DNA of 64,000 nt from positions 62,001 through 126,000 of the forward strand of contig JAFWJL010000002.1 of assembly GCA_017511605.1 (NCBI GenBank). The letters run 5' to 3'. The notes under the pieces were generated by a model that was not told where the DNA came from, did no database searches, and was given only the letters and a program-made list of their open reading frames with translations. Made by a program: the position numbers and the translations under genes. Shown here in pieces: positions 14,457 to 57,302 of this stretch. The stretch's first letter is position 1; each line of letters opens with the position of its first letter. This DNA comes from Bacilli bacterium. GTDB taxonomy: Bacteria; Bacillota_I; Bacilli_A; RF39; UBA660.

Positions 14457-14915
14457 ATGATAAAAAAGATTTCACTATTTGCAGTATCACTTTTACCATG
14501 GTTTCTAAGTAGTATCATTCCATTAAATTATAAATACTACGATACTATAAATAAACCATTCTTTGCACCACCAAAAATATTTTACCCAATAGCTTGGACT
14601 ATTATGTATATATTAATAGCTATAACTATTTACACAATACTAAGAAATTATAAATTTAAAGAAATAAAAACTTCATATAAAATAACTCTATTAATAAATT
14701 ATATCTTTAATCAGAGCTTTACTTTATTATTTTTTGGATTAAATAATCCATTCCTAGGATTTGTAGCGTGTCTCGGAACATTCCTATCAGCGTTATTTCT
14801 ATATGAAGAAACTTCCCTATTAAATAGTAAAATATCTAAATTACTTTACCCATATATATTGCTATTAGTATTTGCTACAGTATTATCGTTATCAATTTAT
14901 TTATTAAATTTATAA
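14457..14915 (+). CDS. TspO/MBR family membrane protein
   Basis: 152 residues with five hydrophobic helices. Family signature visible: NKPFFAPPKIFYPIAWTIMY (residues about 33-52), LNNPFLGF and the following helix. Known members bind porphyrins or sterol-like ligands and take part in stress responses; the ligand here cannot be told. Rare plus-strand gene, with AGAGGAG before the ATG and its own terminator. Alternative function unlikely given the signature. Confidence 0.88.
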   Translation: MIKKISLFAVSLLPWFLSSIIPLNYKYYDTINKPFFAPPKIFYPIAWTIMYILIAITIYTILRNYKFKEIKTSYKITLLINYIFNQSFTLLFFGLNNPFLGFVACLGTFLSALFLYEETSLLNSKISKLLYPYILLLVFATVLSLSIYLLNL

Positions 14916-14934
14916 GCACAAACGTGCTTTTTTT
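14914..14934 (+). terminator. intrinsic terminator of tspO
   Basis: AAGCAC/GTGCTT hairpin with AAAC loop followed by a run of seven T, overlapping the last base of the tspO frame. Confidence 0.85.
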
Positions 14935-14936
14935 AG

Positions 14937-14966
14937 TTGCAAAGATAAATTTTTTTCGAATAATAT
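14937..14966 (+). promoter_or_regulatory. promoter of tiny membrane peptide locus 1
   Basis: TTGCAA, 18 bases, TAATAT. Transcription would begin near 14971 with GGGAGTA, which is exactly complementary to TACTCCC at 15168-15174 in the 3' region of the same RNA. Confidence 0.6.
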
Positions 14967-15011
14967 TATAGGGAGTATAATTGAGTGCTTCCTCTGAAAG
15001 GAGGTGATGAT

Positions 15012-15089
15012 ATGACTAAGAAAGATTTTTTAATCATTTCTTTAATCATTATCATATACATACTCCAAGTTATTCTATTATTAAAATGA
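15012..15089 (+). CDS. tiny hydrophobic peptide, candidate type I toxin, locus 1
   Basis: 25 residues: basic/acidic head MTKKD and one hydrophobic run FLIISLIIIIYILQVILLL ending in Lys, enough for one membrane helix. A very strong AAAGGAGGTG lies 5 bases before the ATG; its GAGG can pair with CCTC at 14991-14994, hiding the ribosome binding site. The mRNA 5' leader ATTGAGTGCTT (14980-14990) is perfectly complementary to 15107-15117 beyond the stop. The peptide shares M.KKD[FI]LI.SLIIII with the ones at 23692 and 57091. Function is inferred from architecture: membrane-acting toxin controlled by antisense RNA. A harmless small membrane protein is the alternative. Confidence 0.75.
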   Translation: MTKKDFLIISLIIIIYILQVILLLK

Positions 15090-15101
15090 TAATGAAAACA
15101 A

Positions 15102-15175
15102 CAAAAAAGCACTCAATCATCTAGATTAAGTGCAACACCCAAACGGTAAGCACTTATAACATATAAGTACTCCCT
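15102..15175 (-). ncRNA. candidate antisense RNA (antitoxin), locus 1
   Basis: Predicted RNA of about 74 nt on the minus strand. It would start near 15175 (GGGAGTAC...) just after a consensus promoter, fold a 5' hairpin (AGTACTTAT/ATAAGTGCT), and end in a strong terminator hairpin GCACTTAATC/GATTGAGTGC followed by six T (stem at 109-133 of the 15.1 kb block, that is 15109-15133). It is fully complementary to the 3' untranslated region of the peptide mRNA, as RatA is to txpA. Transcription itself is predicted, not shown. Confidence 0.7.
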
Positions 15176-15181
15176 ATAAAT

Positions 15182-15210
15182 ATTATATTATAATAATAAA
15201 CTATTATCAA
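15182..15210 (-). promoter_or_regulatory. promoter of antisense RNA, locus 1
   Basis: Minus strand TTGATA, 17 bases, TATAAT: near-perfect sigma-A promoter with start point at about 15174-15175. It lies in the gap downstream of the hybrid kinase gene, which needs no promoter there. Confidence 0.75.
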
Positions 15211-15212
15211 GA

Positions 15213-17780
15213 TTATCCTTCTACTTTGTTATGTTCTACATAGTTTCTAGCAATTTCTAACACTTTTTTATATTCTGTTTCTAAAGGTTCAAAATTACTA
15301 AATACAAATTCTGTATCATTTTCTTTACTTTTTAATTCGTGTTGGTAAGCAATATCTGCAAGTTTCATAAATCCTAAGTATTTACAATCACTCTTTAATG
15401 AATGAACTTCAATCGCATAATCAGGCATATTATTATTATTCTTATATTCAACTATCTTAGCCCATTTACCTTCAACATCATTCATAAAATCAGATATAGT
15501 CATATTATACATATCCATATCACCAAGTAATTCTAAAGCATGATCTACATCTACACCATTATCTTCTAGATATTTTCTATCATATAAATTAGGCATATTA
15601 GGAACTTCAGGTATTGGTGGAACATCTACTACAGGAATTGTTTGAACATTTTGTACAGGTGATATTACCGGTTCAACAACAGGTACTACAGGTATAACAG
15701 TTGGTACTGTAGGCACCTCAGTAGGATTTTCTTCTAATATCTCTATTTCATCTACATGAACAGGCTTAAATCCAGTAGAAGTCTTTTCTAAATAATTCAT
15801 ATCTAATTGATCCCCTAATATTTCTTCAATATTTTCTTCAACAGGAATAATTTCAGGATCAGTCTTCTTTTCTCTTTCAGCCTCAGCTTTTTCTTGATCT
15901 GCTACATTAGGTATTTCTTCACTTCTAATATTATCATTTTCTTTAATAACTTCTTTAACATCAATATCTTCAGTAGCACTTCTACCAAGTATTTGATTAA
16001 ATACTTGAATTAATTGGCTTTGCTCAATTGGCTTAGCCAAATAGTCATCAAAACCATCAGCTAAGTATTTTTCTCTCATACCAGTAATTGCATTAGCAGT
16101 TAATGCCACAGTAGGTATTTTGAAATTTGGATTCTCTTTTAGTTTTTTTAATGTCTCAACACCACTCATCTTAGGCATCATATCATCAAGTAAAATGGCA
16201 TCATAAACTTCACCACGATTAATTCTATCCAAACACTCAAATCCACTAGCACATGTAGCAATATCAGTAGCTCCATATTTACTTAATATTTTACATCCTA
16301 CCTTTAAATTCAAAGGAGTATCATCAACCATTAATATCTTAATACCAGTTAAATCCAAAGTAGTTTTAACTTTTTTAGTTTCAACATCTGCAGTAGTTAT
16401 CTTTTGATTCAAAACAACAGTAAACTTAGAACCTTGTCCATATATAGTATGAACTATAATTCTACCACCCATCATTTCAATTAATTGTTTTGTAATAGCA
16501 AGTCCTAATCCAGTACCCTCAATAGTTGTATTCCTATCTTCATCAAGTCTTTGGAATTTAGTAAACATTTTATCAATACTTTCTTTTCTAATTCCACGAC
16601 CAGAATCTTCTACTGAAATAATTAACTTAGATACATCTTTTGTATTAATACAATTAACTTCATAATGTACAAATCCTTTATCAGTATACTTACAAGCATT
16701 ACTTAAAAGGTTAGTAACAATCTTCTTTAAATTAGCATGATCTCCAAATAAATTTGTAGGTAAATCAGGGGCTATACTATATGAAAAATCTAATCCCTTT
16801 TCATTCATTCTAGGAGTTATTAACTTAGCTAAATCCTCAAATGTTTCAGGAGCATTATACTTAGTATTAATAATCTCTAACTTACCAGCTTCAATTTTAC
16901 TAATATCTAATATACCATTAACTATCTCAAGTAATGTTTGAGAAGCATTAACTATATCCTTAGCATTCTCTTGTGCTTCCCCTAAATTTTGAGCATCAGC
17001 GATACAATCACTAAAACCAACTATTGCATTCAAAGGAGTTCTAATTTCATGAGACATACTAGAAAGGAAGTCTGTCTTAGCTCTATTAGCTTTGTCAGCC
17101 TGTTCACGAGCTATTTCTAACTCTCTTACCATCTTCATATCAGGATTTTCAATAGTATGATACATTAATAAACAAATCAATGTTTGTGAATAAGTCAAAA
17201 GCAAAAACTGTGGATAATTTTTTTGTATAGCAATTGCAAATGTACCTATTATAAAGAACATAAATACTGGTAAATATTTCTTTGTTCTAATATTTTTAAT
17301 ATTTATAATTAACATAGCAATTATTGTTAAGACATAAATAAAACTAACTGAATAAGCAAAATTTACAGATAAACCGGTAGTATAAAAAACTTGATAATTA
17401 TTTTCTACTACTATATCGATCGGCAATACATATATTGCCGCAACTACTAGTGAAACAATTACAGCATGAACTATTTGCACTGCTTTTTTCTTTTCTTTAA
17501 AAGATATTCTATAGATGTATGAAGTAAATAGAGACGTCCAAATAATAAGGTATACCAAATACGATTTCAATATAGCTACACTTAGTAAATAATAATTTTC
17601 ATATATTCTACATGCAACCGCACACAATATTTCAATAATCAACCCAACAAAATTAGATATAATCAATAAATTGTATATTCTTGTCTCCTGATTTTTTACA
17701 TGCCCTTTTACATTAAATAATACTAATACTATAATTATTATTGGCAACGCACTAATAGGAAAAAATACACCACTACCCAT
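15213..17780 (-). CDS. hybrid sensor histidine kinase with REC and HPt domains
   Basis: 855 residues, four-step phosphorelay in one chain. Residues about 5-210 form roughly seven membrane helices of an unnamed sensor. A coiled coil leads to HisKA with His244 (SMSHEIRTPLN), then HATPase (NACKYTDKG, DSGRGI, GTGLGL). The receiver has phospho-acceptor Asp532 (LLDDMMP), ILMVDDTP and a Lys in DYLAKP. An acidic and then Pro/Val-rich linker (about 610-735) follows, and a C-terminal HPt domain with His793 (IEVHSLKSD). No partner response regulator lies nearby, so output goes to a distant gene or is by HPt alone. Such complete hybrid kinases are less usual in low-GC Firmicutes. Confidence 0.92.
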   Translation of the reverse strand: MGSGVFFPISALPIIIIVLVLFNVKGHVKNQETRIYNLLIISNFVGLIIEILCAVACRIYENYYLLSVAILKSYLVYLIIWTSLFTSYIYRISFKEKKKAVQIVHAVIVSLVVAAIYVLPIDIVVENNYQVFYTTGLSVNFAYSVSFIYVLTIIAMLIINIKNIRTKKYLPVFMFFIIGTFAIAIQKNYPQFLLLTYSQTLICLLMYHTIENPDMKMVRELEIAREQADKANRAKTDFLSSMSHEIRTPLNAIVGFSDCIADAQNLGEAQENAKDIVNASQTLLEIVNGILDISKIEAGKLEIINTKYNAPETFEDLAKLITPRMNEKGLDFSYSIAPDLPTNLFGDHANLKKIVTNLLSNACKYTDKGFVHYEVNCINTKDVSKLIISVEDSGRGIRKESIDKMFTKFQRLDEDRNTTIEGTGLGLAITKQLIEMMGGRIIVHTIYGQGSKFTVVLNQKITTADVETKKVKTTLDLTGIKILMVDDTPLNLKVGCKILSKYGATDIATCASGFECLDRINRGEVYDAILLDDMMPKMSGVETLKKLKENPNFKIPTVALTANAITGMREKYLADGFDDYLAKPIEQSQLIQVFNQILGRSATEDIDVKEVIKENDNIRSEEIPNVADQEKAEAEREKKTDPEIIPVEENIEEILGDQLDMNYLEKTSTGFKPVHVDEIEILEENPTEVPTVPTVIPVVPVVEPVISPVQNVQTIPVVDVPPIPEVPNMPNLYDRKYLEDNGVDVDHALELLGDMDMYNMTISDFMNDVEGKWAKIVEYKNNNNMPDYAIEVHSLKSDCKYLGFMKLADIAYQHELKSKENDTEFVFSNFEPLETEYKKVLEIARNYVEHNKVEG

Positions 17781-23601: not shown

Positions 23602-23629
23602 TTGACATAGAACATATATTTGATATAAT
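23602..23629 (+). promoter_or_regulatory. promoter of tiny membrane peptide locus 2
   Basis: TTGACA, 16 bases, TATAAT: strong sigma-A promoter with start point near 23636. The first bases GGAATACTTAA (23637-23647) are perfectly complementary to TTAAGTATTCC at 23843-23853. Confidence 0.75.
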
Positions 23630-23691
23630 GAACTTAGGAATACTTAATAAGTTGGGTGGAGCCAAACTTCTAAAAGAAGGGAGGCGATAAA

Positions 23692-23775
23692 ATGAAAAAG
23701 AAAGATATATTAATATCTTCCCTAATCATAATTATCTTCCTTTTATTATTTTTACTATTTATAGTATTAATATAA
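23692..23775 (+). CDS. tiny hydrophobic peptide, candidate type I toxin, locus 2
   Basis: 27 residues: MKKKD followed by an uninterrupted hydrophobic run (ILISSLIIIIFLLLFLLFI and VLI). GGGAGGCG precedes the ATG; a CTTC/GAAG hairpin sits immediately upstream of it. The leader GTTGGGTGG can pair with CCACCTAA or CACCCAAC in the 3' region, besides the 11-base end-to-end pairing. Core identical in pattern to loci 1 and 3 but the DNA is the most diverged of the three. It lies between rluD-like and hsp20 genes, both on the other strand. Toxin function is inference. Confidence 0.75.
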   Translation: MKKKDILISSLIIIIFLLLFLLFIVLI

Positions 23776-23856
23776 AAGCAAACCACCTAATTCATCACTG
23801 ATTTAGGTGGAACCAATAACGGCAACACCCAACACTGTGACGTTAAGTATTCCCTT
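23774..23856 (-). ncRNA. candidate antisense RNA (antitoxin), locus 2
   Basis: Predicted RNA of about 80 nt beginning near 23855 with GGGAATACTT and ending in the hairpin CCACCTAA/TTAGGTGG (23783-23810) followed by TTTGCTTTT on the minus strand. The -10 TAAAAT (23862-23867) is good, the -35 poor (TGAATA), so the antisense promoter is less convincing than in locus 1. It covers the 3' untranslated region of the peptide mRNA. The plus strand also shows CCC followed by seven T at 23852-23860, a likely end for the sense RNA. Confidence 0.55.
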
Positions 23857-23898
23857 TTTTTATTTTATGAAGTTTCCTTCAACGTATTCATTATAACA

Positions 23899-23926
23899 TA
23901 AAAAGAGTCTTTTAACAAGACTCTTT
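23899..23926 (-). terminator. intrinsic terminator of the hsp20 gene
   Basis: AAAGAGTCTT/AAGACTCTTT hairpin followed by TTATG on the minus strand, beginning a few bases past the stop. Confidence 0.75.
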
Positions 23927-57031: not shown

Positions 57032-57090
57032 AGTGTGTTAAGGGAATACAAAGTTGTTGGGTGCTTGCCTCCGGAAAGGAGGTGGTGTTA

Positions 57091-57168
57091 ATGGCAAAGA
57101 AAGATTTTTTAATCTCATCTTTAATCATTATCATCTTCTTACTTATCCTATTACTTATGAAATGGTAA
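57091..57168 (+). CDS. tiny hydrophobic peptide, candidate type I toxin, locus 3
   Basis: 25 residues: MAKKD, then FLISSLIIIIFLLILLL and MKW. GGAAAGGAGGTGG precedes the ATG, and CCTCC (57069-57073) can pair with GGAGG (57078-57082) to hide it. The leader TTGGGTGCTT (57057-57066) pairs with AAGCACTCAA (57185-57194) beyond the stop, with one G-U. Over the first 40 coding bases it differs from locus 1 at only a few positions, so these two are close copies. It is located between CPBP protease and dut. No other protein-coding frame on the plus strand is present. Confidence 0.75.
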   Translation: MAKKDFLISSLIIIIFLLILLLMKW

Positions 57169-57174
57169 TGATAA

Positions 57175-57267
57175 TAAAAAGAAAAAGCACTCAAGCATAG
57201 CTTAAGTGCATAACCCAATTGAGGTGAGTACTCAACTTGCAATAACTGAGTATTCCCTTTTTCTTAT
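57175..57267 (-). ncRNA. candidate antisense RNA (antitoxin), locus 3
   Basis: Predicted minus-strand RNA of about 90 nt starting near 57267, containing GGGAATACTCAG and a GAGTACTCA/TGAGTATTC hairpin region, ending in a strong terminator GCACTTAAGC/GCTTGAGTGC (57187-57209) followed by five T. It covers the 3' untranslated region of the peptide mRNA. The GAGTACTCA hairpin followed by CCCTTTTT can also end the sense RNA near 57262. Confidence 0.68.
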
Positions 57268-57273
57268 GTATTA

Positions 57274-57302
57274 ATATTAACACATTTTTATATTTTATGC
57301 AA
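57274..57302 (-). promoter_or_regulatory. promoter of antisense RNA, locus 3
   Basis: Minus strand TTGCAT, 17 bases, TAATAT, immediately past the dut stop. Confidence 0.65.

Follow-up and report, generated by a model that had tools for sequence, protein, structure and literature searches.

An apparently undescribed family of putative RNA-restrained toxin genes in uncultured gut bacteria

Type I toxin-antitoxin systems easily escape detection, since both components are very small and as a rule lack annotation. Positions 14937 to 15210 of the window (the whole stretch of DNA analysed, 64,000 nucleotides long) raised the question whether a short hydrophobic reading frame and the paired elements around it, referred to here as locus 1, form such a system. 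An earlier note, made from the letters alone, had proposed a type I toxin with an RNA antitoxin. The elements it named are present in the sequence: the 25-codon hydrophobic frame (15012-15089) behind AAAGGAGGTG, GGGAGTA at 14971 with TACTCCC at 15168, an exact 11-base complementarity of leader positions 14980-14990 (ATTGAGTGCTT) to 15107-15117, CCTC...GAGG flanking the ribosome binding site, and a convergent unit on the minus strand with the promoter TTGATA-17-TATAAT (15210-15182, 11/12) and a terminator hairpin (15133-15109) with a T-run. The extension TATAGGGAGTA/TACTCCCTATA probably runs upstream of +1. The features of locus 1 are:

14937-14964, plus strand: candidate sense promoter TTGCAA-16-AATAAT, 9/12, 6 nt upstream of the leader start
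14971-15011, plus strand: mRNA leader GGGAGTATAATTGAGTGCTTCCTC..GGAGG with Shine-Dalgarno (SD) hairpin
15012-15089, plus strand: peptide ORF, 25 codons, MTKKDFLIISLIIIIYILQVILLLK (profile E 3.7e-10, the peptide being among the profile's 30)
15107-15117, plus strand: 3'UTR arm AAGCACTCAAT, fully complementary to leader 14980-14990
15168-15174, plus strand: TACTCCC, 3' partner of the leader start GGGAGTA
15103-15175, minus strand: predicted antisense RNA of about 70 nt with its terminator hairpin at 15133-15109
15182-15210, minus strand: antisense promoter TTGATA-17-TATAAT, 11/12

The 3'UTR arm at 15107-15117 overlaps one arm of the antisense terminator. Many of the elements were near chance in isolation. 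Promoter-like sites around the locus numbered 9 compared with 8.6 in shuffles, and the sense promoter score (9/12) alone was no higher than chance. GGGAGTAT was found three times in the window (1.5 expected), GGGAGTA once on the plus strand and TACTCCC six times. Within 1 kb, two terminators were found, the antisense one and one 3' of the neighbouring gene, compared with 0.2 in shuffles. Recurrence takes the layout beyond chance, because it is found again at two further loci of the window and at more than 100 loci elsewhere.

The three related loci of the window (15012-15089, 23692-23775 and 57091-57168) are all on the plus strand and all lie between genes. A search with a peptide profile, a kind of check that the earlier note had suggested, recovered them at E values of 3.7e-10, 1.7e-11 and 2.6e-12, respectively, with the next best match in the window at 0.27; the three peptides belong to the 30 sequences from which the profile was built. 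The features of loci 2 and 3, including scores with the antisense RNA model R1 described below, are:

23602-23629, plus strand: locus 2 sense promoter TTGACA-16-TATAAT, read directly
23637-23861, plus strand: locus 2 mRNA as predicted, from the leader GGAATACTTAATAAGTTGGGTGG to the T-run, with pairing of its two ends (-35.2 kcal/mol)
23692-23775, plus strand: locus 2 peptide MKKKDILISSLIIIIFLLLFLLFIVLI, profile E 1.7e-11
23768-23889, minus strand: locus 2 predicted antisense RNA, R1 103.8 bits, one of the model's 49 sequences
23890-23918, minus strand: locus 2 antisense promoter TTGTTA-17-TATAAT, 10/12
57042-57262, plus strand: locus 3 mRNA as predicted, from the leader GGGAATAC.. to GTATTCCCTTTTT, with pairing of its two ends (-33.4 kcal/mol)
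57091-57168, plus strand: locus 3 peptide MAKKDFLISSLIIIIFLLILLLMKW, profile E 2.6e-12
57172-57287, minus strand: locus 3 predicted antisense RNA, R1 81 bits, sequence in the model
57274-57302, minus strand: locus 3 weak antisense promoter TTGCAT-17-TAATAT, read directly (best site by script TTTGCA-18-TAATAT, 8/12)

The genes on either side encode a TspO-like protein and a hybrid histidine kinase at locus 1, a pseudouridine synthase and an Hsp20 protein at locus 2, and a CAAX protease-like protein and a dUTPase at locus 3, so that no phage or plasmid setting was seen among the adjoining genes.

Relatives were gathered over GTDB species genomes with a degenerate DNA pattern for the first 15 codons of the peptide, and at least 116 stretches matched. 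Among the 116 matches listed, 110 were labelled Bacilli, Bacillales, Erysipelotrichaceae, Tenericutes, Mollicutes, Mycoplasma or Candidatus Onthousia; the other six comprised two Clostridia and one each of Firmicutes, an unnamed bacterium, Candidatus Coprosoma and Ignavibacteriales. The Ignavibacteriales match (L019) was discarded as a chance hit with a stop after the first codon. With the three loci of the window included, the matches listed came to 129, of which 115 were used and 14 were left out for missing context or length. Removal of 12 near-identical loci left 103 non-redundant ones. Seventy-seven of these were parsed into the same layout by a script, with locus 1 added by hand, and the 26 whose mRNA ends were not parsed were left out. 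Alignment A4 contained 75 of the 77 parsed loci and alignment A5, without locus 1, contained 49; 73 loci entered the pair counts. As the loci had been gathered via the peptide codons alone, their RNA features are independent evidence.

Codons with a single difference were synonymous in 61.5% of cases compared with 22.3% expected (1103 ORF pairs), and the changes at the three codon positions of these pairs were 6889, 2120 and 9067. A loosely defined ribosome-binding motif was present upstream of 94 of the 103 ORFs, and the peptides had 18 to 35 residues with a median of 27. Judging from the sequences, the loci have the short hydrophobic ORF with SD and coding selection that is expected of a type I toxin. 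Thirty peptides compared with Pfam, NCBIfam and PHROGs gave chance-level matches only (best E 0.18, 0.01 and 0.022), among them one HokA match at E 0.12, and none of 7 further peptides reached the cut-off of a family model. The peptide had been described as unlike TxpA, BsrG, Fst, Ldr, Ibs and Hok, each of which has, to our knowledge, a curated model; no curated model matched any of the 30 and 7 peptides above chance level, in agreement with that description.

The leaders fell into two types, L1 (GGAATACTTAAC-like) and L2 (GTTGRGTGCTTGCC-like), and paired with the 3' end of the mRNA. In unregistered duplexes of 103 loci, the mean energy of a leader with its own 3'UTR was -32.2 kcal/mol, compared with -24.2 for the 3'UTRs of other loci and -15.3 for shuffled ones. 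The permutation sd was 0.5, and 10,000 permutations never fell below -26.2 kcal/mol. When 3' ends were swapped within leader subtypes only, the value was -28.7 kcal/mol (sd 0.32), and the own 3' end was still better. Of the 103 leaders, 12 had their own 3' end as the best partner and 60 had it within the top tenth, the median rank being 7; locus 2 ranked 12th. Among the three window loci every leader favoured its own 3' end, the stretch compared for locus 1 including promoter letters. Leader position 8 faced the first 3'UTR arm as C-G in 31, A-T in 16 and G-C in 14 of 73 loci, i.e. with two- and three-way compensation, while pairing with the far 3' element failed at this position (36 of 73). 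In these pair counts the register was picked to maximise pairing, and the duplex energies of own versus other 3' ends are the cleaner test. The mean leader-3'UTR pairing probability in folded full-length mRNAs was 0.87 (76 loci, without locus 1). The 5'-3' helix was not recovered by RNAalifold from the sense alignment. The best promoter-like site of the sense mRNA lay a median of 7 nt upstream of the leader start in the 77 parsed loci.

At the sequence level, the mRNA has the 5'-3' pairing known from aapA/IsoA-like control. The SD was mostly paired; its predicted unpaired fraction was 0.255 in full-length mRNAs and 0.271 when the 3'UTR was masked (p 0.53, 76 loci). Predicted SD accessibility was unchanged by masking, and an SR4-like switch at the SD was unsupported; removal of the 3' end was not predicted to free the SD as in aapA/IsoA, nor antisense binding to extend SD occlusion as in bsrG/SR4. 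The long-range helix is conserved, yet it is not predicted to switch the SD, and mRNA stability or blocked ribosome loading are conceivable roles.

On the opposite strand, an antisense promoter scoring at least 9/12 was found in 63 of 77 loci, compared with 16 of 77 for the same stretch on the plus strand and 28% in mononucleotide shuffles. Its spacer was 17 in 71 of 77 loci, and in the 63 loci scoring 9 or more the -10 element lay a median of 28 nt beyond the T-run of the mRNA (10-90%: 28-31). With +1 set 7 nt after the -10 element, the antisense RNA was about 109 nt long. A terminator on the minus strand was found in 57 of 103 loci, compared with 10 of 515 shuffles and 0 of 103 plus-strand readings; the scan missed the other 46 loci, including locus 2. 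The alignment of 49 antisense sequences folded as a hairpin plus terminator with 97.2% of cells paired, compared with 26-41% for slid structures, and 10 of 17 pairs were changed on both sides. Covariation was 0.443 compared with 0.258 in shuffles, and none of 500 shuffles reached the observed pairing or covariation, the structure being derived from the alignment on which it was tested; further pair types were fewer than in shuffles (23 vs 25.4). Over the shared stretch the antisense strand folded more stably than the sense strand in 74 of 77 loci. A G-U pair in the antisense RNA is a C-A clash in the mRNA, so that the changes seen in the stem suit the antisense strand. The 5' part of the antisense RNA is nearly identical in letters to the mRNA leader, since the two ends of the mRNA are inverted repeats. 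The antisense RNA could by its sequence compete with the leader for the 3'UTR and could pair with the leader too; leader-antisense duplexes had -28.9 for own, -25.9 (sd 0.38) for swapped and -22.1 for shuffled pairs.

The covariance model R1 was built from this antisense alignment, with loci 2 and 3 included and locus 1 outside. At E<=0.1, 112 of the 115 peptide loci had a match at their stop codon, including 63 of the 66 outside the model. The three without a match were L021, L088 and L114. In L114 (3254-3337; 4269-4381) the 3'UTR diverges soon after the stop codon and an antisense match occurs about 1 kb downstream, as though toxin and antitoxin had been parted by an insertion. Judged by sequence and covariation, the family has an antisense RNA gene that carries a promoter and a terminator of its own and is complementary to the putative toxin mRNA. 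Locus 1 gave an R1 match at 15206-15094 (32.1 bits, E 0.0029), which alone is weak since the mirror strand of locus 3 gets 33.0 bits; locus 1 consequently relies more on its own anatomy. It is without the T-run that terminates the sense mRNA in most relatives, and its predicted antisense RNA has a nearer start (about 15175) and is without the 5' part found in relatives. It looks like the most divergent of the three window loci.

Further peptide groups were found from the antisense side. Seventy-six regions were taken from R1 matches listed, mostly where the profile of the peptides described above (KKD) missed or scored weakly (L242 and L243, with good KKD matches, being exceptions). They held 94 R1 matches, of which 86 were read; 5 mirror-strand matches, the known KKD locus L179 146-270, the duplicate L240 and the cut L236 were left out. 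As the 86 loci were chosen mostly for a weak KKD match, their shares are not population estimates. By script, 53 of the 86 had an intact hydrophobic ORF: KKD variants, a KTF group (MKTKTFIVKVLKLIAIILFLLIVMIVVIKK and others), a KRE/EKYL group and two doubtful ones (L210, L229). Leader-3'UTR pairing, covering 49 of the 53, was -36.3 kcal/mol in the KTF group (n=24; shuffled -16.1), -35.3 in the KRE/EKYL group (n=15; -13.6), -20.6 in KKD variants (n=8; -13.8) and -34.6 in the others (n=2; -17.1). A TTCC-plus-T-run ending was present in 15 of the 49. When the group profiles were compared, only the first 10-11 columns aligned, with a probability of 50 for KTF and 81 for KRE. Several peptide groups in one RNA frame suggest that the regulator is conserved and the toxin exchangeable.

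From this we consider each locus, with a probability of about 0.85, to be a type I toxin-antitoxin pair with an RNA frame common to several peptide groups and an exchangeable toxin. The features are those of a type I pair by anatomy. The earlier interpretation as a type I toxin with RNA antitoxin is supported, while its scope was too narrow: locus 1 appears as a divergent member of a superfamily that includes other peptides. The loss of frame and pairings among homologues had been named as an observation that would speak against it; the homologues keep both, as seen from the synonymous bias, the compensatory leader-3'UTR changes and the conserved antisense elements. On the sequence evidence, the frames, the pairings, the antisense promoter, terminator and fold, the co-occurrence, the copy number and the broken-peptide loci are established; from these we infer transcription of both RNAs, a part for RNase III, toxicity and a membrane target. 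In the proposed mechanism the short mRNA would be translated into a membrane peptide about 18-35 residues long. Pairing between the leader and the 3' end of the mRNA, together with a local hairpin that sequesters the ribosome binding site, would leave the full-length mRNA largely shut. The convergent antisense RNA (about 109 nt; about 70 at locus 1) would begin just past the mRNA end and stop at the stop codon of the peptide. By pairing with the 3'UTR it would probably expose the mRNA to degradation by RNase III, and it may contact the leader as well. Loss of the antisense RNA or trimming of the mRNA would allow the peptide to be made and to injure the membrane.

Among the 86 further loci, 33 were not called intact. 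Two of these were intact by eye (L178, L179), 11 had a partial peptide gene without its beginning, 4 contained another kind of short ORF (two in L174 and two in L233), 2 were cut by the contig end and 14 held nothing certain. Loci that kept the antisense gene beside a peptide gene without a beginning included L186, L191, L195, L208, L209, L212 and L225, and such loci are possible stand-alone antitoxins. A broken peptide gene beside a retained RNA would likewise be expected if the RNA is useful and the peptide dispensable. Taken to its end, this would make the antisense RNA a regulator in its own right and the peptide gene a freely decaying decoy, which would agree with antisense genes persisting beside broken or unrecognised peptide genes; with the strong synonymous bias in the KKD peptides, and with intact ORFs beside antisense RNAs falling mainly into alignable hydrophobic groups, we regard it as extremely improbable. 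At L174, L229 and L233 the antisense locus adjoined a different short ORF (..FSIIVLYTIIVLKKD-like), partly overlapped by another SD-led frame; these ORFs are perhaps a further peptide group with coupled reading.

Among known systems, type I pairs are reported from Proteobacteria, Firmicutes and Tenericutes in the part of a 2025 article available to us, where the Tenericutes are not specified further (PMC12390103). Of the Rfam covariance models only a tRNA matched in the whole window, and the nine matches up to E 10 in 14900-15260 were all to unrelated families and below the cut-off. In the available portions of the open-licence PMC literature, including PMC12390103 and PMC8309996, no system recognisable as this family was found. 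By sequence, the family is not a member of any known one. In action it would be most like the 3'-overlapping Bacillus systems combined with an aapA-like mRNA fold, going by the sections of the articles cited here.

According to sections of PMC4147584 and PMC6562991, the antisense RNA of txpA/RatA overlaps the 3' end of the toxin mRNA by about 75 nt and those of B. subtilis systems by 100-140. The present loci resemble txpA/RatA, bsrG/SR4 and bsrE/SR5, as described there, in the convergent pair, the 3'-end overlap and the short membrane peptide; they differ in peptides about half as long, without a family match and without an Rfam family, in an antisense 5' part that repeats the mRNA leader and in the absence of a predicted SD switch. 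In aapA/IsoA of Helicobacter pylori, sections of PMC6733600 describe several chromosomal copies, 5'-3' pairing that shuts the full-length mRNA, and an analysis of covariation, all of which have counterparts here. Unlike in aapA/IsoA, the antisense RNA here covers the 3'UTR, no release of the SD is predicted on 3' trimming, peptides and lineage are different, and several peptide groups share one RNA frame. The par system of the Enterococcus faecalis plasmid pAD1 (Fst, RNAI/RNAII) has, in the account consulted in PMC4147584, convergent 3'-overlapping RNAs, a small hydrophobic toxin and repeats reaching the leader, and the loci described here share the convergent overlap, the small hydrophobic peptide and an antisense RNA also able to reach the leader. 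In contrast to par, the two RNAs share no terminator, that of the antisense RNA is located at the toxin's stop codon, and the peptide has no family match.

The distribution of the family was determined from even draws of genomes. The peptide profile matched in 162 of 288 genomes (E<=1e-4) of the order of the Candidatus Onthousia faecipullorum genome that holds locus L047 (G009), which we take to be RF39. The placement of the window itself relies on the loci it shares with these genomes and on its low G+C. At E<=1e-5, matches came from 19 of 346 genomes of the class and 3 of 344 of the phylum, every one of which had already appeared in the order draw. With R1, matches were obtained for 68 of the 97 genomes drawn from the order and for 23 of the 296 drawn from the class. 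One of these 23 (G465) was absent from the order draw, and its KTF locus L247 lies near a contig end; it may be due to transfer, to a mis-binned contig or to a member of the order not drawn earlier. The peptide profile and the RNA model arrive at the same loci by independent routes, within an order of gut bacteria known only from uncultured members, and the loci look like an apparently undescribed family of RNA-restrained toxin genes. The strict peptide DNA pattern had no match in viral contigs. The only match of the relaxed pattern (L163) was rejected by eye as lying out of frame inside a longer reading frame and without a leader. With a 25-residue alignment, 343 pattern matches in viral contigs were obtained and none was confirmed by tblastn, a step that so short a query makes barely feasible. 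A tblastn search of phage and plasmid sequences gave 0 matches, an uninformative outcome given the low-complexity filter of BLAST.

Up to 22 antisense matches were found within one 1.4-Mb genome. In 14 source genomes, R1 had 1-27 matches each at E<=0.01 among the matches listed, some of them mirror strands or duplicate contigs (G007), and the peptide profile had 1-21 each at E<=1. The nearest neighbour genes formed 142 clusters of 176, so the loci are scattered. These figures bear on a reading that shares the same RNA mechanics, namely that the peptide is a non-toxic small membrane peptide, e.g. a regulator of a membrane protein, tuned by the antisense RNA. Single-span peptides can serve as regulators, and the toxicity in the type I reading is itself deduced. 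The many copies beside unrelated neighbours, however, suit a toxin better, as do several peptide groups under one RNA frame and the rarity of peptides without antisense RNA (3/115) relative to antisense RNAs without an intact peptide (whose number is not a population share). We consider a non-toxic peptide unlikely and retain the toxin-antitoxin pair.

Neighbouring genes read opposite to the toxin, i.e. in the antitoxin direction, in 123 of 176 cases (binomial p 1.4e-7, which ignores the non-independence of two neighbours per locus). In 22 of 115 loci a convergent tRNA or tmRNA gene had its 3' end 150-209 nt beyond the stop codon, compared with 2 of 115 on the upstream side and 1.3% for random places in the same DNA, which include genes, hence the contrast is overstated. 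Dispersed copies with few common neighbours, tandem copies in 10 loci and this near-fixed distance from tRNA/tmRNA 3' ends would be in keeping with a short repetitive mobile element whose inverted repeats mimic RNA pairing and whose ORF is accidental. Its repeat arms, however, vary among copies through compensatory changes, for which a transposable element was rejected; the ORF is under coding selection and the stem changes fit the antisense strand, and we judge this explanation very improbable.

For the toxin-antitoxin reading, the chances are somewhat better than even that one RNA frame (leader, 3'UTR and leader-copying antisense RNA) is a swappable holder for at least three toxic peptide groups, present in up to about 20 copies per 1-1.5-Mb genome of one gut Bacilli order, mostly with nearby genes and tRNAs in the antitoxin direction, and with the broken-toxin copies as stand-alone antitoxins. 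If one RNA regulator does hold different toxins, with broken-toxin loci retaining the antitoxin, toxin exchange and anti-addiction could be studied under RNA control, and the question arises why very small genomes hold so many such loci.

The tRNA/tmRNA-adjoining loci were L007, L016, L037, L038, L040, L041, L049-L052, L058, L064, L065, L067, L075, L097, L099, L101-L103, L105 and L115, many of which share a similar trailer GATTGATA..CTCGAA..TTCGAG. In L003, L061, L063 and L113 the tRNA 3'-end motif ATYAATCTGGTG lay at most 420 nt past the stop codon with no tRNA gene beside it, and by its sequence resembles a leftover tRNA end. An attachment-site reading of the tRNA neighbourhood was dropped, as no integrase was found among six ORFs scanned near these four loci. 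The ten loci in tandem pairs were L012, L030, L066, L071, L072, L076, L078, L083, L091 and L097; the pairs were 348-1115 nt apart and often differed in leader or peptide subtype.
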